Virus record (IMG/VR): IMGVR_UViG_3300028592_000024 | Coordinates: 1-47,422 of that record | Source: a virus | DNA: 47,422 bases | Reading direction: 5' to 3' (one strand) | In this document: positions 10,408-46,865 of the stretch, piece by piece | Position numbering within the stretch: the stretch's first letter is position 1 | Layout of the letters: every line of letters starts with the position of its first letter | Notes under the pieces: model-generated | Told to the model about the DNA's origin: nothing | Seen by the model: the letters and a program-made list of their open reading frames with translations, nothing else | The model's database searches: none | Translations under genes and position numbers: made by a program

Positions 10408-11259
10408 TCAAGAGGCTTCTTTTGGCTCCGCTTGTTCGTTGAAGACGCGTAACTGTTCGAGCGTGCGCAGACAGTTCTTACTGTCCTTCTTCAGTCCTTT
10501 GTTGTAGTACTTGCACATAGTCTCGATCATACCCCTCTGCTTGGCACTGATATAGTTACCAACGTCGAGTAAGATTCTCCTAGGTGACACGTTCAGTTGC
10601 TCTACGAACCTGTCATCCTTGAGAATCTCACCTTGCCATGCAACCAGGGACACTACTCCATAGAAGAACAGTTCGGCCATAGCCTCATCCTGTCCTGGCC
10701 AGGTCTTCATCATAAGTGTCAGTGCTCGTTGCACCACGTCCTCACCGAATCTGGCAGTCAGTCTGTAGAGACTACCAAGACAGGCAATCTCCCCATACTT
10801 CAGAACACGTGACCCGGTCATGGTAGGTGACGTCGGTATAGCCAGTTTCATTCCAGCACCTTCGACGGCAGACTTGGCTGCCAGTGCAATAGGGTCTTGT
10901 GCAGTCAACGAAGTAACGAACATCTGTGCAGCGGAGACGGCAACCCTACCTCCGTTCAGAATCTTGAAGATCTGAGCCTCATACTGTGGCCCACTGCTTT
11001 CCAACATCAGACACTTCCAGTGTTCCATCCCCAACTTCATCATGGCCGTCATTCGTTGCAAACCGTCAATGATGTATAGCTTACCATCACTCCTTCTACC
11101 AACCGTCAGTACTCCTGCTGCTGCTGGCATGAAGTTCTTCTCGATCTTCCTGGCGTGTGGTTTGATACCACGCTGATAGGAGTTGTCTACCGTGAGTGTA
11201 GACAATAGAACCTTCTCGATCTTACCTTCCAGACTCCCACCGATTCGACGACTCGACAT
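10408..11259 (-). CDS. ParB/sulfiredoxin-fold-like protein
   Basis: 283 aa. The N-terminal 100 residues fit the ParB_N/Srx-like fold: a YQRG segment near 28-31, then strand YIIDGLQRMTAM with the DGLQR signature at 65-69 (ParB-family DGxHR position). The rest is helical with no recognised motif. ParB-like proteins in phages include DNA-binding, nuclease and nucleotide-using enzymes; some are reported beside thymine hypermodification genes, so a role in that pathway is possible. It follows the tRNA cluster and probably shares its promoter at 11902-11931. A second relative lies at 17768-19237. Confidence 0.66.
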   Translation of the reverse strand: MSSRRIGGSLEGKIEKVLLSTLTVDNSYQRGIKPHARKIEKNFMPAAAGVLTVGRRSDGKLYIIDGLQRMTAMMKLGMEHWKCLMLESSGPQYEAQIFKILNGGRVAVSAAQMFVTSLTAQDPIALAAKSAVEGAGMKLAIPTSPTMTGSRVLKYGEIACLGSLYRLTARFGEDVVQRALTLMMKTWPGQDEAMAELFFYGVVSLVAWQGEILKDDRFVEQLNVSPRRILLDVGNYISAKQRGMIETMCKYYNKGLKKDSKNCLRTLEQLRVFNEQAEPKEAS

Positions 11260-11387
11260 AGTGTTCTCCTGTTACTAAGACCAACGGTTAAAGAAACTGC
11301 CTGTCTTTCCTCACCACGCCGGACAGGCACGACGTTCCTCGGGACACTGGTCTGTGGGAAGTGACTTTCACAGCCAGGTTGGTGATT

Positions 11388-11455
11388 ACTACCGGTAGGA
11401 ATCGAACCCACCCTCCCGCAAGGTTGCGACCCTTACGTGGACCACCAGGAGTAGC
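11388..11455 (-). tRNA. tRNA-like gene with shortened D-arm, anticodon probably CGC
   Basis: 68 nt. A good T-arm (GTGGG-TTCGATT-CCTAC) and an anticodon hairpin with loop GTCGCAA (U33 present, anticodon CGC, Ala codon GCG) are visible. The acceptor pairs 6 of 7 with a C-C mismatch at the seventh pair. The D region is only 13 nt, forming at best a 3-bp stem TGG/CCA, so this is an atypical or degenerate tRNA. It sits 3 nt after the neighbouring tRNA-like element, which shares the 5' sequence CTCCTGGTGG. Confidence 0.5.
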
Positions 11456-11458
11456 ATT

Positions 11459-11551
11459 GCTGCTGGCAGGAATCGAACCTGCCCTAAAACTTCATAGCTC
11501 CCGTCTACTGGCATGTCACTATGAAGCTCCCCTCTAGCCACCAGGAGCAGC
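11459..11551 (-). tRNA. tRNA-like element, 93 nt, abnormal anticodon arm
   Basis: The T-arm (GCAGG-TTCGATT-CCTGC) and acceptor (GCTGCT/AGCAGC) are good. Where a 17-nt anticodon arm should be, an 8-bp stem CTTCATAG/CTATGAAG encloses a 21-nt loop, so no anticodon can be assigned. It could be a type II tRNA I fold wrongly, a tRNA with an insertion in the loop, or a decayed tRNA. It lies in one transcript with the flanking tRNA genes. Confidence 0.42.
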
Positions 11552-11815
11552 GTAGCAGACTTTACACCCACGGTCTGCCAGCGTGGCGGAATCTACCAAC
11601 CTCGAACAGGGAGGTAAGTAGGTCGGTAGCGTGTTTGGTGGTGGGCTGCCAGCGTTATCTCCTCCGCCCACCGGGGAGTTTAACCCTGTCGCCGATGCGT
11701 CCAAGCAACAGGGGTTCGACGTACGGCCTGCTAAGGATACCCACAAGGTGTCTCCTACCTCCTTAGCAGCCTGGGACACTGGCCTTGCCCAGCAACGAGC
11801 ACGGCAGGAGAAATA
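11552..11815. other. non-coding spacer in the tRNA cluster
   Basis: No supported gene. It contains a 10-bp hairpin CTGCTAAGGA (11728-11737) with TCCTTAGCAG (11760-11769), loop 22 nt, and another stem-loop GCAGAC/GTCTGC near 11550-11575. Frames are open on the minus strand but lack convincing starts. Further decayed tRNA pieces are possible. Confidence 0.4.
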
Positions 11816-11886
11816 GGCTCCGGCAGGACTCGAACCTGCACTACTAGATTTAGAGTCTAGTCGTCTTCCAGTTGACTCACGGAGCC
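11816..11886 (-). tRNA. amber suppressor tRNA, anticodon CUA
   Basis: 71 nt, canonical cloverleaf. Acceptor GGCTCCG pairs 7/7 with CGGAGCC. The D-loop AACTGGAA has the normal eight bases with G18G19. Anticodon stem CTAGA/TCTAG encloses loop CTCTAAA, so U33 is followed by anticodon CTA, reading UAG. The T-arm is GCAGG-TTCGAGT-CCTGC. CCA is not encoded. A consensus promoter lies immediately upstream. The amino acid charged cannot be told from sequence. Several genes here end in TAG (RNR, terminase ATPase, metzincin, a heme protein), so the tRNA would cause some readthrough unless it is weak or timed. Confidence 0.9.
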
Positions 11887-11901
11887 GGGGCGGTAGAGGA
11901 G

Positions 11902-11931
11902 ATTATAAATCTCCCCCACCTATCTTGTCAA
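11902..11931 (-). promoter_or_regulatory. consensus sigma70 promoter for the tRNA cluster, palindrome over -10
   Basis: Minus strand: TTGACA (plus 11926-11931), 18-bp spacer, TATAAT (plus 11902-11907). The -10 lies inside the palindrome GAGATT-TAT-AATCTC (11900-11914), a likely operator. The predicted start of transcription is a few bases before the amber tRNA, so it probably drives the tRNAs and the ParB-like gene. Confidence 0.75.
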
Positions 11932-11934
11932 GCA

Positions 11935-12183
11935 CTACTCCGGCTGAGAGTAGTTAACACCGCTGTTGAATCCTTCTGCGAAACACGCGGCTTGATCCAG
12001 GTTCTTCAGCCGTAGTTGGTATCGGCACCTATCGTCGTCTGGGTCAACGATGCCGAGGTTTACTCCAACACCGATAGAGTCATACTGCCAGGTAGTGTCT
12101 CCAACTGTAAACCGAAACACACCTGGCTTGACTTCTGTTGCCTTGTTGGCAAACGGTATCTCTTTGGTTCTTGGTTTACCCAC
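11935..12183 (-). CDS. hypothetical protein, about 82 aa
   Basis: Begins at GTG 12183 (AAGGGGG about 6 nt upstream) as MGKPRTKEIPFANKATEV; a longer frame would run into the preceding gene without a better ribosome site. It looks like a small beta-strand protein (GVFRFTVGDTTWQYDS, then YQLRLKNLDQAACFAEGF) and ends in TAG. No family recognised. It follows the putative ssDNA-binding gene closely. Confidence 0.6.
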   Translation of the reverse strand: MGKPRTKEIPFANKATEVKPGVFRFTVGDTTWQYDSIGVGVNLGIVDPDDDRCRYQLRLKNLDQAACFAEGFNSGVNYSQPE

Positions 12184-12196
12184 TGGCCACCCCCTT

Positions 12197-13675
12197 TCAC
12201 TCGGAGTCGTCACCGAGCAGGTCATCCCAAGGAACGTTACGATACTCCTGTTCGGTAGCTAAGTCTTGAACTGTCACAGTCCGGGTGCTAGGCTGCACAC
12301 CGATCACCTTTACCTCAGTTCTCTTGCCAGGCTTCTTAGACCGTGCGTTGATGGGTTTATAGTACCACACCTGATCCTCTTCAGGCATGAACTCATCCTC
12401 GCCACCCTCCTCTGCTGGTGCCTCATCGGTCTGATCCTCCACTTCTTCAGCAGGAGGCTCGCCACCCATGATCCATCCTTTCACCTGCTCCCAGCTTTCG
12501 GAGTTGAGAACGTCCGCCTCCGTGTACCCGGCATTGATGGCCAGGTTGGTGAGTTCCGCCTGAGCCTCGCCGTCCATACGGTTGCAACGCTCAACCAAAC
12601 CATCCAGATCACCAAACTCATCGAACGGTTCCGGCTCTGGTGCCGGTCGTGCCATAGGCTTCTTGCCTGCCGGAGTAGGTGCTGGTCTGACGGCAGGCTT
12701 GGCCGGAGTAGGTGCCTTGGTTGGCGGAGCCTTTGCTGTCATCTTGGCAGGAGCGGCAGTTGGCTTAGCTGTCGGAGCAGTCGGTCTTGCCATCGGCTTA
12801 CTAGCCGGAGCAGCAGGCTTCTCTGTGGCAGCCATAGGCTTACCCGCCGTGGGCTTCTGGGTAGAGGTAGCAGTAGCCTTCTGTGGTGCACCAACCGTAG
12901 GCTTGGCAGAGGATTTGGCCACCGGGTGCATACCCTGATACTGCCGTCCTTGCGTTGCGGGTGGTGCCACTCTCCCGTTCCCAGTGTTGTCAACCGTGTC
13001 GTTCACCTCCTGAGGTGTATAATCCTTTACCCATCCGTGCCACGAGTGTAGGGTCTTTGGTTCCCTACCGGCGAAGGGGTTAGCTTCCATGGCTGCCTCT
13101 TCGGTTGGCCATGCACCGGGGTTGCGAGATGGCTTGAGGTTGCCGGTCTTAGCATCTTCTGACCAGATACGCCACTTGCCGTCGTCGCTCTGTGCAACCA
13201 CCTCCTTATCCATCTTGTAGGTCCGGAACCTGAAGTAGATGGGGGGATCAGCGTTTTTGAGATCCTCACACACCTGCTCGAGATCCTCAAACTCCAGGGT
13301 ACTGGTCTCCTGACCAAGCTGACGGAGAACGTTGTACACGAACCCCATGTGATCCTCAACAGTCTCCCTCGTACGACCTGGGGTATCATACAGAGGTTCC
13401 GTGATCGAGGTTAGCTGGCCCTCGGTACGGATGCCATTGAACTCCTTTGGTGTGTCAACACGACCACCGGCGTAGAAGTACCACTCACCCTCGTTCGGAC
13501 CAGACTTGTACTTGTCAAACTTCATCTCCGTCAGCATGGCGACACCGCCATCAATTCCTGGAGGAAGCTCACCCATGAACCCGTACTTCGTCTCGGCATC
13601 CTTGTGCTGCTCGTGTGCGGCAGCCAGACGGTCACGCATGCTGGACACGAAATCGGACTGGTGTTGCTTCGCCAT
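12197..13675 (-). CDS. putative ssDNA-binding protein with Ala/Pro/Lys linker and acidic tail
   Basis: 492 aa. Residues 25-190 are a beta-rich domain (FDKYKSGPNEGEWYFYAG, VEDHMGFVYNVLRQLG, IYFRFRTYK) like uncharacterised phage proteins usually placed with Sak4-type recombinases and thought to bind ssDNA by an OB fold. Residues 250-345 are a low-complexity linker of AP/KP/TA units. The C-terminal part holds an acidic stretch (PAEEVEDQTDEAPAEEGG) followed by a small SH3-like segment (VWYYKPINARSKK, VKVIGVQPSTRTVTVQ) and the acidic end LLGDDSE, as in SSB tails. It starts with AAGGAG 9 nt upstream. The SSB role is inferred from layout and neighbours (Sak4-like ATPase, nuclease), not from a proven motif. 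Confidence 0.5.
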   Translation of the reverse strand: MAKQHQSDFVSSMRDRLAAAHEQHKDAETKYGFMGELPPGIDGGVAMLTEMKFDKYKSGPNEGEWYFYAGGRVDTPKEFNGIRTEGQLTSITEPLYDTPGRTRETVEDHMGFVYNVLRQLGQETSTLEFEDLEQVCEDLKNADPPIYFRFRTYKMDKEVVAQSDDGKWRIWSEDAKTGNLKPSRNPGAWPTEEAAMEANPFAGREPKTLHSWHGWVKDYTPQEVNDTVDNTGNGRVAPPATQGRQYQGMHPVAKSSAKPTVGAPQKATATSTQKPTAGKPMAATEKPAAPASKPMARPTAPTAKPTAAPAKMTAKAPPTKAPTPAKPAVRPAPTPAGKKPMARPAPEPEPFDEFGDLDGLVERCNRMDGEAQAELTNLAINAGYTEADVLNSESWEQVKGWIMGGEPPAEEVEDQTDEAPAEEGGEDEFMPEEDQVWYYKPINARSKKPGKRTEVKVIGVQPSTRTVTVQDLATEQEYRNVPWDDLLGDDSE

Positions 13676-14748: not shown

Positions 14749-14762
14749 ACGCCCTCCTATTG

Positions 14763-15989
14763 TTAGGTACTAAGTTCCGGGAACAGATTGTCGGTTCGCT
14801 CCAGCCCAGCCTCACTGCCGCTGTGCAGGTACTCATCCAACTCGGAAGAGCCACCCTCATCCAGTACGTTGTACACTCCGAACGGGTGCCGCCAGTGGGC
14901 ACCCCTACCACCGGCATTCATCCAGCAGTCCTCGGTTTCCTGGAGCCACCCCCACCAGTCGCACAGGCTCTCCAGTATGGGGTCTAGGCACTCCTTGGTG
15001 AACCGTCTTACATCGGCAGGGCTAATCTCAACCCGCCACCGCATGAAGAAGTTGTCCGGCTCTTCCATTATAACAGAGGCGAGTCGAGAGTAAAACTCGT
15101 CCTGAGTTTCTGGCGGCTTCCCGCCGATCCGCCCATCCCCACCACACTTTACGCACCTGGCACCGCTGGGCATCTTACCTTCACCCTTGCACTTCCCGCA
15201 CTTAGCCCCGGCAGTACCCTTGCCCCTGACTATACTACCTTTCCCTCCAGAGAGTGGCCTCCGGACCACGTTGTAACGTACACCACCGATTAGATACTCT
15301 CTACCGTCGGCGTGTCTGTAGTGACCCAGTCGTGCCAGGTCAGGACTCGGATTGTTGTATAGGGCGGTCATGTACATCATGGTCTGCAAGTCGAAGTGCA
15401 GTTGCTTCTTAAGTGCCTCCGGTTGCACGTCACCCTTCGTCTTGTTCTCCTGGATGTACACGGCTGCGTTCCTGCCCTTACCAATCAGGTCAACGCTGTC
15501 CCACTTACCCCGGAGAGTAACGATCTTACCTGATGGCAACTGGTATGGAACCCCGAAGGACTCTTCCTGGAGGAGAGGGGTACGCTGTAGTACATCTGGG
15601 TGTTCTGACCAGTAGTACAGATATAGTGGGAACTGTGTAGAACACACGTTCATCCAGTGTTCAATGTTATCCTGGTCGGTGGGGTACTTCCTCATCAACT
15701 GGCCACAGTAGTCTGCTAGATAGCCCTGCCACTCATAGCCCTGTGCCCACATCTCCTCACATATGTGCCACATCTGACCATACTCGATACGATGGTTGAA
15801 CCCTGACGCTGGCTTCAGACCCTCTACAACCAGTAACCTGAACCTCTCACGACACACGATGAATCTGCTGAGCAGGGAGAAGGTGATGCCGTCAACCTCC
15901 GGTCCCTTCCACACCGGGCCTGACCGAGCCTTTGGCCTGACCCTGTCAGCAGAGCCTATGCTACTCTTCAGCTTCTTAACAAAGTCCAT
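14763..15989 (-). CDS. PD-(D/E)XK nuclease, RecB/Cas4-like, with DnaJ-type zinc insert
   Basis: 408 aa. The nuclease core is visible: RFIVCRERFRL near 42-52 (the CPRRF-like helix), catalytic Asp in LRGKWDSVDL, then QENKTKGD as the E-x-K motif, and FDLQTMMYM as the motif IV helix. After it comes an insert with CGKCKGEGK and CVKCGGDGR, repeats of the DnaJ CxxCxGxG zinc type. A Trp/Cys-rich C-terminus follows. It likely acts as an exonuclease in recombination or host DNA degradation with the Sak4-like ATPase. Its ATG overlaps the stop of the CsrA-like gene (TAATG), with GGAGG inside that gene. Confidence 0.8.
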   Translation of the reverse strand: MDFVKKLKSSIGSADRVRPKARSGPVWKGPEVDGITFSLLSRFIVCRERFRLLVVEGLKPASGFNHRIEYGQMWHICEEMWAQGYEWQGYLADYCGQLMRKYPTDQDNIEHWMNVCSTQFPLYLYYWSEHPDVLQRTPLLQEESFGVPYQLPSGKIVTLRGKWDSVDLIGKGRNAAVYIQENKTKGDVQPEALKKQLHFDLQTMMYMTALYNNPSPDLARLGHYRHADGREYLIGGVRYNVVRRPLSGGKGSIVRGKGTAGAKCGKCKGEGKMPSGARCVKCGGDGRIGGKPPETQDEFYSRLASVIMEEPDNFFMRWRVEISPADVRRFTKECLDPILESLCDWWGWLQETEDCWMNAGGRGAHWRHPFGVYNVLDEGGSSELDEYLHSGSEAGLERTDNLFPELST

Positions 15990-16258
15990 TACGCCTCCAT
16001 TATATCATTGAGACAATCTTTGCAGATAGGACACAGCTTAACCACCACCCCGTGGTTCTCCTTGGTAATCAACTCGCTACAGATAGTACAGCCGGTCTGA
16101 CCTTTGGCTCTCTCACCCTTCCTGATGGTAGCCTGTTCCGGTGCGTCGATAGAGATGCTAACACCGTTGCGGTACAGGTCTTCAACCCTGATCACCACCT
16201 TCTCTTTACCCTCACCGATCACGATTGCCTGGCCAATCTCTCTCGTCAGTATCAGCAT
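15989..16258 (-). CDS. CsrA-like RNA-binding domain fused to a zinc ribbon
   Basis: 89 aa. Residues 1-45 resemble CsrA/RsmA: MLILTREIGQAIVIG, a VVIRVEDL strand, then VSISIDAPEQATI, with the LTR (R6) and a later Arg that contact GGA-containing RNA in CsrA. Residues 57-85 form a zinc ribbon (CTIC and CPICKDC). CsrA binds GGA in mRNA leaders to block or stabilise translation, so this could redirect host or phage expression. The zinc fusion is not a standard CsrA layout. It is coupled to the nuclease gene by TAATG and lies 3 nt after the UDG gene. Confidence 0.75.
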   Translation of the reverse strand: MLILTREIGQAIVIGEGKEKVVIRVEDLYRNGVSISIDAPEQATIRKGERAKGQTGCTICSELITKENHGVVVKLCPICKDCLNDIMEA

Positions 16259-40738: not shown

Positions 40739-41917
40739 ATGTTTGTCGATAATTTCATCCAGGTTCCAGGATCGGACTACACCGGCAACGCCGTGGAGGT
40801 GATGAACGGAGTCCGATTCGATCCTGGTATGCTCAGGCCATACCTGGGCAAGAACAACGAGCGTCTGGTGACTATCAACACTGGCCGCATGATCTACGAC
40901 AACACTAAGCAGATTTATCTGCCAGAGCGTCGTCCGGTACGGATTCGTGACCTGATGAACCAGGGGATGTTCCATTCGGTGTGGAACGCCACCTCGCTCC
41001 GTAAAGAAGAGTGGATTCAGCTTGACCAGGCAGTAATCCCGGCCTTGCGCGACAGGCTGCGGTTCTACGACGACATGAAGAAGGCCAGCAACTTCTCCGG
41101 CTTCAACGGCATGGGGAAGCTGACGCTGGAATACGAGACGACCAACGACGTTGGTGAAGCCGTCGTGGACATGGATGGCCTGTCTCCTGGTCGTACAGAC
41201 AATCCGCTATTCAAGCTCCGCTCACTGCCCCTGCCGATCACGCACTCGGACTTCTGGTTCAGTGCCCGTCGTCTGGCAGTAAGCCGCTCTGGTGGTGTGC
41301 CGCTCGACACTCGTATGGTGGAGATGGCTTCCCGTCGATGTGCAGAGATGGTTGAGGATACCGCCATCGGCATCGAGACTGGTATCCAGTTCGGCACTGT
41401 TGCCTCCGGAGTGACGGCACACGACGGTCTGTCCAAGGTGTACGGGGCGACCAACTTCCCATACCGTATCACCAAGACCGATCTGACCACTCCTACGGGT
41501 AGCAACCCCGAAGCGGTGATGCAGGACGTTATCGAGATGCGAGAGGAGATGTACGACATCGGTGCGTACGGACCCTTCGTCCTCTACACCAGCACGTCTT
41601 ATGATGCTTGGCTGGACAACGACTACTTCCGCACCGGCTCCACGGCTATCTCTCGTACGCTGCGTGAGCGTATCCGTGGTATCGAAGGTATCATGGATAT
41701 CAGACGTCTGGACCAGTTGAATAGCGGGTACCAGATGCTATTGATCCAGATGAGTTCCGAGACTCTCCGTGCCGTCACCGGCATGGCCTTCACTGTGGTT
41801 CAGTGGGAGAGCCAGGGCGGTATGCGGCTCAATTTCAAGGTCATGGGCATCGAGGTGCCACAGTTCTTCGCAGACTACGACGGTGACGCCGCTATCGTCC
41901 ACGGAACCACCAGTTAA
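40739..41917 (+). CDS. major capsid protein, encapsulin-like HK97 fold
   Basis: 392 aa. The layout matches encapsulin/linocin-like capsid proteins: an N-terminal arm, LPLPITHSDFWFSARRLAVS (strand and helix of the P-domain), RRCAEMVEDTAIGIETG (spine helix), YGPFVLYTSTSYDAWLDNDY, and LRAVTGMAFTVVQWES in the A-domain, ending FFADYDGDAAIVHG. It builds the icosahedral head. GGGAG precedes ATG. Confidence 0.8.
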   Translation: MFVDNFIQVPGSDYTGNAVEVMNGVRFDPGMLRPYLGKNNERLVTINTGRMIYDNTKQIYLPERRPVRIRDLMNQGMFHSVWNATSLRKEEWIQLDQAVIPALRDRLRFYDDMKKASNFSGFNGMGKLTLEYETTNDVGEAVVDMDGLSPGRTDNPLFKLRSLPLPITHSDFWFSARRLAVSRSGGVPLDTRMVEMASRRCAEMVEDTAIGIETGIQFGTVASGVTAHDGLSKVYGATNFPYRITKTDLTTPTGSNPEAVMQDVIEMREEMYDIGAYGPFVLYTSTSYDAWLDNDYFRTGSTAISRTLRERIRGIEGIMDIRRLDQLNSGYQMLLIQMSSETLRAVTGMAFTVVQWESQGGMRLNFKVMGIEVPQFFADYDGDAAIVHGTTS

Positions 41918-42616: not shown

Positions 42617-43132
42617 ATGGTCAACGTGGAATTCTATTCAAGGAGCGGTCCTTTGAGCGATGCAGCAATCGCGACGGTGGTAACAGGATTGATTACCATA
42701 GTCACAATGATAGCCGGTGTGATGACCCTGTGGATCAAAAGTGCCTACGCCATTCAGGAAGTCAAGGATGAGGTGAACAAGCAAGGTAATGAGATCAACA
42801 GGAAGCAGGACTCTGTTTCTAGTAAGCTGGATCACAACACCGCTATCTCTGAGAAAGCAAAGGAGTCTGCTGCCAAGGCTGAACTCCAGACCAACGGTGC
42901 TCTGAGTCAGTACAAGATGGCTGTACTGGAGAATGCTAGTAAGATAGCTGGATTGGAGAAAGACACGGTAGCCATTCGGATGTCACTAGATGTCCTAGCA
43001 AAGTCCATCAGCGAGACACGGCACGAGATGCGTGGCCACCTCCAGGGCGTCATCTACAAGCTAGACCTGCTGGCGCTAAAGTGTCTGCAACCTACAGAAC
43101 CGCCCTGCCCGCCTGAAGATAAGGAGAAGTGA
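42617..43132 (+). CDS. membrane-anchored coiled-coil protein
   Basis: 171 aa. One transmembrane helix near 18-40 (AIATVVTGLITIVTMIAGVM), then a long coiled coil (VKDEVNKQGNEINRK, then KAELQTNGALSQYKMAVL). ATG 42617 is very close to its SD; GTG 42626 may be the real start. It could be a spanin-like or holin-associated protein or a tail-membrane protein; only the membrane helix and coil are certain. Confidence 0.55.
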   Translation: MVNVEFYSRSGPLSDAAIATVVTGLITIVTMIAGVMTLWIKSAYAIQEVKDEVNKQGNEINRKQDSVSSKLDHNTAISEKAKESAAKAELQTNGALSQYKMAVLENASKIAGLEKDTVAIRMSLDVLAKSISETRHEMRGHLQGVIYKLDLLALKCLQPTEPPCPPEDKEK

Positions 43133-44044: not shown

Positions 44045-44112
44045 AGGCTCGCATGTTCCAATTTCTGGTACTGCGACGATTAAGACGCATCCAAAAGTTT
44101 CTGGAGGAAGTC

Positions 44113-44340
44113 ATGGCTACTCAGGCTGAACTCACCAAACAGGTCAAGGCAATCGGTGACAAACTCACCAAGATTGGTGAAGAGAGTAAAACACTCTTGA
44201 GCAAAGTTGACGAGTTGAAACAGGCCGTTGCCGACGCCGAGAAGGTCACACCTGAACTGCAATCAGCAGTTGATGCCGTGGCAGAACAGGCCAAGGTGGT
44301 TGACGACCTTGTCCCTGATCCAGCCACTCCGACACCCTGA
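44113..44340 (+). CDS. small coiled-coil protein, 75 aa
   Basis: ATG 44113 is preferred: GGAGGAAG lies just upstream, while the longer frame has no comparable site. Residues 4-65 are heptad-rich (LTKQVKAIGDKLTKIG, LLSKVDELKQAVADA). Likely an oligomeric late protein; function unknown. Confidence 0.6.
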   Translation: MATQAELTKQVKAIGDKLTKIGEESKTLLSKVDELKQAVADAEKVTPELQSAVDAVAEQAKVVDDLVPDPATPTP

Positions 44341-44366: not shown

Positions 44367-45956
44367 GTGTATGCCGCTCTTGTCGCCGCCGCAATATCCA
44401 TCGCTCCAACACCGCAACCCTCCTCCCCGGCTTCCGCAGTAACAGCGGCGGCTGTGGACGTAGCCAGGATGGAGGTTGCGTTAATAAAGTCAGGCTTTAA
44501 GCCCAAGCAGATCAAGGAGGAGTTGAGGTTCTACCGATACCTGTGGTTCAACTCCAAGGCCGAACACTACGAGGATGACAACGTAGTAAACGTGTTTGAC
44601 CTGAACCTAAAGTCTGACCAGGGTGTGTTTGGATACCTTACCATAGTCTCACCCAACCTGGGCAGGATTGATCTAAGGGACTTTGGCTGGGACAAGAGGC
44701 TGCTGGTGTGGGAGAAGTTCAGGGACATAGACTACATCTTCCATGTAAAGATACAGTTCCTTGAAGACACGGTTATCGAGGAGGTGTGGCCGGGTGGCGA
44801 GTACAAGGGTAAGGATTACGAATACGGTGTTTACAACAAGACGCACGCCAAGAAGGGCCAGATAATATCCGCACCGGCACCGTGGTTACCTGAGAAGGAG
44901 ATAACCTACCTCCGGAAGACCCTGATAACGGAAGTGCCAATAGTCTCGGCCCACTGGAGGTTTGTACAGACAGCACGACAAATCTCCATACGCAACAAGG
45001 ATGAAGGCGTGGGCTACTACGAGTGGCTGGGCATCAAGAAGAGACAGGACTTCTTTGACCTGGCTGGTGTGAATGAGGACCGTGCGATCAAGAGGTTCAG
45101 GGAGTGGCGAGCCGTAGTCGAACGCTCTGGTATATCACAGCAGGGACGACAGATAGTCAGGCTGGGTGGTGACGACGCCGTGTGGGGTACACTGGACGTG
45201 TTCAGCCAGGTGGGCAGGGGTCAGCCCAAGAAGAATCTGGAGCGTGGCCAGTTCTTGCATGACGCAGAAGAGTGGTATGGGTTCCTACCCAACGGGTTGA
45301 TGCTAACTCTGCTGGCGAACGCCCAGGGGTTGGCACAGGCGACGGCACCAGACCAGATCGGTCCGGACGACTCGACTCTAAGGGTCGGCAAGGACGCCAG
45401 GGTGCACGCCAACCTTTCCTGCATACGCTGTCATGGCTCTGATAAGGAGATGCTCAAGCCTATCAACGACTGGGTCAGGAAGATCTTCAGGGCTGGAGGG
45501 CCACTGGAGTTAGCCGATAAGAAGAAGGATGTCATCCAGCGTCTGAAGAACCAGTACTTAAGAGACCTTGACAAGCTACTGGCCAGAGACAGGCAACGCT
45601 ACACCGAGGCTATTGCGGAAGTCACAACCACCAAGGCCAACCCCAAGGGCAAGACCAGTACAGAGATAGCCAAGCTCTATGGTGAGTACTGGAACAGGTA
45701 CGTAGAAGAACCTGTGACCGTCGAGGTGGCAGCCAGGGAGTTAGGCACCTGGAGTTGGAAGTTGAAGGATGCTATCCGCAAGCACATGAAAACCAGGGGT
45801 GTCACGGATTTGATACTCGCTGCTTTTGTAGACGAACCCTCGGGTAGTATAACCAGACTCGAATGGGAAGAGGTGTATGGCTTCACACAGACTCTCATTC
45901 ACGGCTTGACGGCTCTGCCTGAAATCGAGAAGAAGGAAGAAGCCAAACCGGATTGA
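44367..45956 (+). CDS. exported protein with one c-type heme motif
   Basis: 529 aa from GTG 44367 (GGGAG 10 nt upstream). The first 24 residues (MYAALVAAAISIAPTPQPSS, then PASA) resemble a short Sec signal. A large novel domain follows, with SCIRCHGSDK at 351-360 giving a single CxxCH c-type heme site (C352, C355, H356); Lys/Met further on may supply a sixth ligand. The C-terminus is helical and charged. It strongly resembles planctomycete secreted heme proteins in style. A phage gene for an exported cytochrome-like protein is unusual; the heme depends on host maturation in the periplasm. Confidence 0.62.
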   Translation: MYAALVAAAISIAPTPQPSSPASAVTAAAVDVARMEVALIKSGFKPKQIKEELRFYRYLWFNSKAEHYEDDNVVNVFDLNLKSDQGVFGYLTIVSPNLGRIDLRDFGWDKRLLVWEKFRDIDYIFHVKIQFLEDTVIEEVWPGGEYKGKDYEYGVYNKTHAKKGQIISAPAPWLPEKEITYLRKTLITEVPIVSAHWRFVQTARQISIRNKDEGVGYYEWLGIKKRQDFFDLAGVNEDRAIKRFREWRAVVERSGISQQGRQIVRLGGDDAVWGTLDVFSQVGRGQPKKNLERGQFLHDAEEWYGFLPNGLMLTLLANAQGLAQATAPDQIGPDDSTLRVGKDARVHANLSCIRCHGSDKEMLKPINDWVRKIFRAGGPLELADKKKDVIQRLKNQYLRDLDKLLARDRQRYTEAIAEVTTTKANPKGKTSTEIAKLYGEYWNRYVEEPVTVEVAARELGTWSWKLKDAIRKHMKTRGVTDLILAAFVDEPSGSITRLEWEEVYGFTQTLIHGLTALPEIEKKEEAKPD

Positions 45957-45995
45957 CAACCAGGGTGTTCCTTTCCTCCAGAAGAAGGAGCAGTT

Positions 45996-46865
45996 ATGAA
46001 GTCTGTGATCGTCGGAATGATGGTGACACTGCTCGTCACCTCCCCAGTAATGGGCCAGTGTTACAGCAGCGGATACCGGTCGAGGGTGACATACTCACCA
46101 AGCTACAGCTATCCGAGCTACAGCTACAGCACTTACTCCGCACCTGTGAAGTACGAGGTTGTGGAGAAGGTGGTGAAGAAGGAAGTACCGGCGTTCGTAA
46201 CGTACCAGGCTGTCGTACCATACGCCTACGCTCTCCTGAATGTCTTCCCTAGCTACGGAGCACAAGCCGCTCCTGGCTACCAAGCCACCTACCCGTCATA
46301 CCCTAACCCCGGATCGGCTCAGCCTCCCAACCCCAACCCTGCCTCCAACCAACCCAACGGTCAGTCATCGGAGTTGAAGCAGGTTCTCGATATTCTCCAG
46401 ACCATGAACAAGGATTTGAAGTCCATGGATGCTCGAGTCCGCTCTCTGGAGGATAGACTCAACGGTACGCCAAGGAGGGAAGAAACTCCCAGGCGGGAAG
46501 AGTTACCCAAAGAGTCTTCACCCACTCCCGAGAAAAAGGAGTTGAGTCTGAAGCAGGCCAACCAGCAGGGAGGGTGTTACCTCTGCCATGACAAGGGTAA
46601 CGAGGCTGTGGGTGGCGGGTTCGTACTGTTCGACAAGGATGAGATTGCCAGGCTGACGGTACGACAGATCGAGAAGCTGGTGCGGCACGTTGAGTTCTCT
46701 AGCATGCCGCCAAGCGATAAGCACCCAGACAAGGATGTTGTGGCGGTCGTGGTCAAGAACAAGCTGCAACCGCCCAGTGACGCAGTAGTCTTGGCCTGGA
46801 AGAAGGAAGCATTCCGCCAACTGGAGGAGCGGAAGAAGGAGAAGGTAGAGGCAGAGAAGAAGTAG
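45996..46865 (+). CDS. exported cytochrome c-like protein with Tyr/Pro-rich repeats
   Basis: 289 aa. Clear signal peptide (MKSVIVGMMVTLLVTSPVMG) with cleavage before QC. Residues 28-110 are Tyr/Ser/Pro repeats and VKYEVVEKVVKKEVPAF, typical of planctomycete surface proteins; a coiled coil runs 124-156. A mono-heme domain has CYLCHDK (C194, C197, H198) and SSMPPSDKHP with Met237 as the likely axial ligand, a normal cytochrome c arrangement. AAGGAG precedes ATG; it ends in TAG. Either a virion-associated redox protein or a host-modifying exported protein. Confidence 0.72.
   Translation: MKSVIVGMMVTLLVTSPVMGQCYSSGYRSRVTYSPSYSYPSYSYSTYSAPVKYEVVEKVVKKEVPAFVTYQAVVPYAYALLNVFPSYGAQAAPGYQATYPSYPNPGSAQPPNPNPASNQPNGQSSELKQVLDILQTMNKDLKSMDARVRSLEDRLNGTPRREETPRREELPKESSPTPEKKELSLKQANQQGGCYLCHDKGNEAVGGGFVLFDKDEIARLTVRQIEKLVRHVEFSSMPPSDKHPDKDVVAVVVKNKLQPPSDAVVLAWKKEAFRQLEERKKEKVEAEKK

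Follow-up and report, generated by a model that had tools for sequence, protein, structure and literature searches.

A conserved pair of exported, predicted heme c proteins encoded in the late region of planctomycete phages

Do phages carry c-type heme proteins of their own, and what would such proteins do during infection? The question is raised by two adjacent genes, here called A and B, on a viral DNA of 47,422 b that is the whole of an IMG/VR record (hereafter the window). To our knowledge, c-type cytochromes are scarcely known in phages. A sequence-only reading of the window had described A and B as late genes whose products each have an export signal and one CxxCH motif, and had suggested a role during infection of a planctomycete-like host. 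Both open reading frames are as described there (Table 1), A having a single CxxCH and Met237 of B lying in the sequence SSMPP.

Table 1. Features of the A-B locus and its surroundings in the window.
Feature	Position	Strand	Basis
Major capsid protein (context)	40739..41917	+	PF19774 1.4e-20, phrog_771 1.6e-18
Membrane-anchored coiled-coil protein, holin/spanin-like candidate	42617..43132	+	One hydrophobic segment and coiled coil; weak PHROG matches only
Astacin-like metzincin without evident signal peptide, 303 aa	43133..44044	+	Pfam Astacin 6.4e-5; myroilysin 1.8e-25; HEAGHTLGFPHEH motif
Small coiled-coil protein between protease and A	44053..44340	+	Helical heptads by eye
Gene A, 529 aa, new family of predicted exported proteins with a single CxxCH	44367..45956	+	Homologs in 22 phage/prophage elements
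CIRCH predicted heme-attachment motif of A, residues 352-356	45420..45434	+	Invariant in 22/22 phage and 19/19 host proteins
Gene B, 289 aa, predicted exported protein with a cytochrome c domain behind a signal peptide, a Tyr/Pro-rich linker and a coiled coil	45996..46865	+	Profile matches
Signal peptide of B, ~residues 1-20	45996..46055	+	Hydrophobic N-terminal segment
Coiled-coil helix of B, residues 124-157	46365..46466	+	Long AF2 helix, pLDDT ~75-90
CYLCH predicted heme-attachment motif of B, residues 194-198	46575..46589	+	C194, C197 and H198 invariant, n=18
Met237 of B, predicted distal heme ligand	46704..46706	+	Invariant, n=18
Gene C, predicted exported low-complexity Tyr/Pro/Gln-rich protein, 139 aa	46913..47332	+	Signal-like N-terminus

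The phage structural block in which the two genes had been placed is genuine: profile searches (Pfam, PHROGs) found genes for terminase, portal, head maturation protein, decoration protein and major capsid upstream of A and B. L003, another contig of the same phage, extends beyond the end of the window, and its next genes are homologs of the post-capsid genes of related phages, read as head-tail connector genes. Elsewhere the window carries a CsrA-like translational regulator fused to a Cys-rich (zinc-like) tail, recognised by eye (15989-16258, - strand), and a tRNA with a CTA anticodon of the amber-suppressor type (11815-11886, - strand), called tRNA-Pyl by ARAGORN. The metzincin gene and gene B both end in TAG, where readthrough would add only 12-13 aa; recoding of TAG was rejected as unsupported, since this codon ends 7 of the 35 genes checked and readthrough gives short tails only.

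The product of B has a clear export signal (MKSVIVGMMVTLLVTSPVMGQ) and the ligands of a class I cytochrome c. The sole invariant columns in an alignment of 18 B proteins are C194, C197, H198 and M237, the last sitting 39 residues past the CxxCH His. Cytochrome_CBB3 is matched by 17 of these proteins at E<=0.05 (best 2.8e-8), the window's own B taken alone being sub-threshold (E 0.017), and Cytochrom_C by nine; PSCyt1 is matched by two of the 18 at E<=0.05 (best 0.015, below the Pfam cut-off). Against PDB sequences the B profile matches CcoP and cytochrome c6, and cytochrome c peroxidases (CCPs) at E>=0.06 only. The cytochrome identity read from the motifs is borne out by these matches together with the invariant ligand set. 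In the AF2 model the cytochrome domain reaches a pLDDT of ~80-90 and the whole model 63, most of it being disordered linker, which is probably why Foldseek found no match for this model. The linker contains 7.8-14.3% Tyr in 12 of 22 copies. B therefore resembles class I cytochromes c and the cytochrome c domains of cbb3 CcoP in its CxxCH, Met ligand and profile similarity, but differs from them in the Tyr/Pro-rich linker, the coiled coil and the lack of respiratory partner genes nearby.

A cytochrome c fold had also been expected for A, and this part of the earlier interpretation was not upheld. The AF2 model is confident (pLDDT 84, pTM 0.84), and neither the PDB nor BFVD, a viral structure library, yielded a match to it at E<=0.001; searches of Pfam, PHROGs, NCBIfam, PADLOC and PDB sequences gave nothing significant, and neither sequence nor fold matched CCP or MauG. 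Like the CxxCH, S254, R261 and N309 show no variation among 22 phage and 19 host proteins, and only one of these proteins lacks D277. The aligned phage and host proteins share no second conserved His or Met, which does not prove an open coordination site. Regarding export, most homologs of A have a classical signal, as claimed, whereas that of the window copy is weaker: the gene starts with GTG, preceded by GGGAG at a distance of ~10 nt, and the N-terminus has a hydrophobic stretch but no basic residues.

A chance origin of the motifs is excluded because the CxxCH is invariant in all 22 A proteins and the four heme ligands are the only invariants in B. Single CxxCH motifs are also known in non-heme proteins, and A lacks a cytochrome fold match, so the motifs might instead bind zinc or form disulfides in proteins free of heme. 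This is very improbable: the invariant set of B is exactly that of class I cytochromes c and its profiles match cytochromes, the host homologs described below have PSCyt1/Cytochrome_CBB3 domains over the Pfam cut-off, and A and B are predicted to be exported to the compartment where heme c is attached.

The queries were A by itself and alignments of its relatives, and together they recovered A from 22 independent elements, which comprise viral contigs, the 595-kb uncultured phage LR756511 and planctomycete genomes with a prophage or prophage remnant (all 18 A proteins in one alignment proved too diverse for a collection scan). B lies directly downstream of A on the same strand in every one of the 22 and its start overlaps the stop of A by 4 bp in 10. 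Rough pairwise dN/dS was below 1 in eight comparisons. Among named phage genomes, A has one match, LR756511, and B none; the same huge phage has a second, more divergent A-like gene (LR756511.1:361799-362845, - strand). Phage genes lie near the pair in many elements, including those for terminase (L041, L044), capsid (L007, L009, L021, L040, L043), baseplate (L048) and tail tape measure, tail terminator and integrase (G361). The original claim that phages encode exported c-type heme proteins is thus far supported.

Phage and host A proteins form the two sides of one branch of the tree with 100/100 support; because this fully supported branch parts them, the phage A family is not a set of recent captures, and recent capture of A from a host was ruled out. 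The concern that the segment might be host DNA misassembled onto a phage contig was likewise dismissed on the basis of the 22 elements, the separate tree group of phage A and the capsid and head-tail context.

The hosts are planctomycetes, as had been surmised. The pair occurs within prophages of genomes that each have 34-69 copies of the planctomycete domain PSCyt2, while no control genome had any such domain over the cut-off, and on both grounds these genomes are assigned to the planctomycetes. Planctomycetes also have the predicted homologs of their own: profile searches that covered genomes from the phylum and the family to which G016 belongs found A domains in 62 of the 95 family members. 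Prophage copies and fragments aside, these host proteins are long single polypeptides (~580-1290 aa), and in those examined a PSCyt1/Cytochrome_CBB3 domain over the Pfam cut-off stands N-terminal to the A domain. This fused cytochrome domain contains a second CxxCH in 18 of 19 homologs, followed by Met-Pro in 17 of 19, and in several host proteins the phage B profile independently matches the region that immediately precedes the A domain. The phage pair thus resembles the planctomycete fusions in both domains, both CxxCH motifs and the conserved S/R/D/N residues of A. It differs in consisting of two genes in the order A then B, with a tree group of its own, whereas the host form is one polypeptide with the cytochrome N-terminal to A, often with FGE-sulfatase, WD40, SHD1 or DUF4384 domains after A or a Ser/Thr kinase before it. 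Fusion of two domains in one protein is a classic sign that they act together, and because planctomycetes encode both heme domains in this way A and B are expected to work together. The fusion family is nameless in the libraries and is present in most of the positive genomes of the family of G016, and PSCyt domains are described as being of unknown function (PMC5615132).

As judged from their sequences, A and B are firmly predicted to be exported, conserved and paired proteins that keep their heme c ligands in the architecture of the host fusion protein, and heme binding and the A-B partnership are well supported. They likely form one complex with B as its electron-transfer subunit. Our proposal is that both are subunits of a single exported c-type heme complex that is produced when infection of a planctomycete is at a late stage, the phage form being a split version of the two-domain host protein. 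B would place a class-I-like cytochrome c domain with a His/Met heme on a coiled-coil, Tyr/Pro-rich stalk and would transfer electrons. A would be a new heme c domain, and because it keeps only the proximal His its heme is probably a reactive or ligand-binding site. Di-heme cytochrome c peroxidases and MauG have two c-hemes, one of them Met-liganded for electron transfer. By analogy with these bacterial enzymes, in that one predicted heme has a Met ligand and the other no conserved distal ligand, there would be a division of labour between a reactive heme in A and an electron-transfer heme in B, although the hemes of A-B would be on two proteins and A has neither homology nor a fold match to the enzymes. 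Carried with an endolysin-like protease (of astacin, matrixin, papain or sedolisin type) and exported low-complexity proteins, the complex would perform or sense a redox reaction at the host envelope. An exported two-heme redox complex acting there late in infection, with the protease, is the most likely function that we infer. The proposal as a whole, which joins heme loading, complex formation, electron flow through B, a reactive heme in A, late timing and envelope redox with the protease, is held somewhat more probable than its denial. Since the host makes the pair as one fused protein of unknown function, A-B looks like an undescribed phage machine at the host envelope.

The neighbors of the pair allow other roles to be considered. 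The metzincin beside it was correctly recognised and belongs to the astacin family (myroilysin E 1.8e-25); by eye it has no signal peptide. A peptidase gene lies near A, within the fetched flank, in 17 of the 22 loci and belongs to one of four unrelated families: astacin-like (the window, L007, L041, L043, L089), matrixin-like (L036, L038, L039, L044, L049, L072), papain-like (L033, L046, L085) and sedolisin/kumamolisin-like (L021, L042, L094). The remaining five have no recognised peptidase. Phages of the same capsid family without A have one in 1 of 25 loci, a weak papain-like match (Fisher p ~2.5e-7, with flank lengths that differ and kinship among loci ignored). The protease may nevertheless be a neighbor rather than a partner of A-B. 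On the 85-kb contig L046 a second papain-like protease gene lies downstream of the module (14751-15497), and in L007 a phage-encoded response-regulator receiver domain (PF00072, 1.2e-16; 10961-11449) is directly upstream of A. The exported repeat protein noted next to the pair, C, is present, as seen by eye only, and a C-like exported low-complexity ORF follows B in L007, L009, L033, L037, L042, L046 and L085 (also by eye). PADLOC had no match for A, B, C or the protease and only weak coiled-coil matches for the small helical proteins.

That peptidases of four unrelated families replace one another beside a single gene pair recalls endolysin modules and is compatible with a planctomycete-specific lysis or exit cassette, in which the signal-less protease would be the endolysin, the membrane-anchored coiled-coil protein the holin or spanin, and A, B and C would remodel the protein-rich envelope. 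Genes with transmembrane and coiled-coil segments lie ahead of the pair in the window, L007, L036 and L044, and the window peptidase has no evident signal peptide. Such a cassette is judged unlikely, as no known holin, endolysin or spanin family scored above weak values in PHROGs or Pfam, a recognisable peptidase is missing at some loci, and a normal lysis cassette may lie in the part of this phage genome outside the window. A structural or cross-linking role is suggested by the high Tyr content of the B linker and by the C proteins, which are exported and of low complexity. It is conceivable, if quite improbable, that A-B is a heme oxidase or peroxidase that cross-links or modifies Tyr-rich exported proteins (the B stalk, C) or host envelope proteins in the periplasm, the protease cutting them, and that it would in this way open or seal the protein-rich planctomycete envelope.

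The site of the pair in the genome bears on whether it belongs to the phage head. In 14 capsid relatives without the pair the gap between capsid and adaptor genes is 57-772 bp, and in the five with the pair at that site it is 4.2-7.4 kb; L043 and L089 have the pair ahead of the head maturation gene instead, and a few capsid relatives have other cargo between capsid and adaptor. L012, a capsid relative without A-B, has at the MCP-adaptor site an ORF (11276-12394) whose product carries a CxxCH close to the C-terminus; this may be another heme gene, or the motif may be due to chance. Most phages of the same capsid family are without the A-B module, which is therefore accessory, and from its insertion at one site in some phages and at another in L043 and L089 it is a late-region module and not a part of the head. 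Genes of this kind may be morons, A-B then acting without catalysis as a surface or periplasmic decoy or a superinfection-exclusion factor against the fused two-heme proteins of the host. The occurrence of the module in prophages, its position in several phages at an insertion-prone site and the fusion of host relatives to Ser/Thr kinase (L061), WD40 (L051) and FGE (L053, L059) domains, suggestive of sensing or signaling, would fit such a role. It is nonetheless an unlikely one, since the heme ligands of both proteins are under selection across great divergence, which suits a redox function.

The nearest precedent for the pair is the phage auxiliary gene soxD, which also encodes a protein with a c-type heme motif (PMC8190135). 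SoxD serves thiosulfate oxidation, and two phage copies are without heme motifs (PMC8190135); A and B, in contrast, do not belong to the Sox genes, and every copy retains the motif. No report of this phage pair was found in the open-access literature, to which the search was confined. What is new is the A-B module and the A domain, present in no library searched; the parts are in some measure known, B being a cytochrome c domain and the peptidases belonging to known families.

These results describe a pair of predicted heme c proteins as a stable module in phages whose genomes vary widely in size and reach 595 kb. In A they add a predicted heme domain for which no structural relative was found. 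The pair is linked, Rosetta-stone fashion, to a protein family widespread in planctomycetes and is a possible marker for planctomycete phages, and it makes testable how phages handle the unusual envelope of these bacteria.
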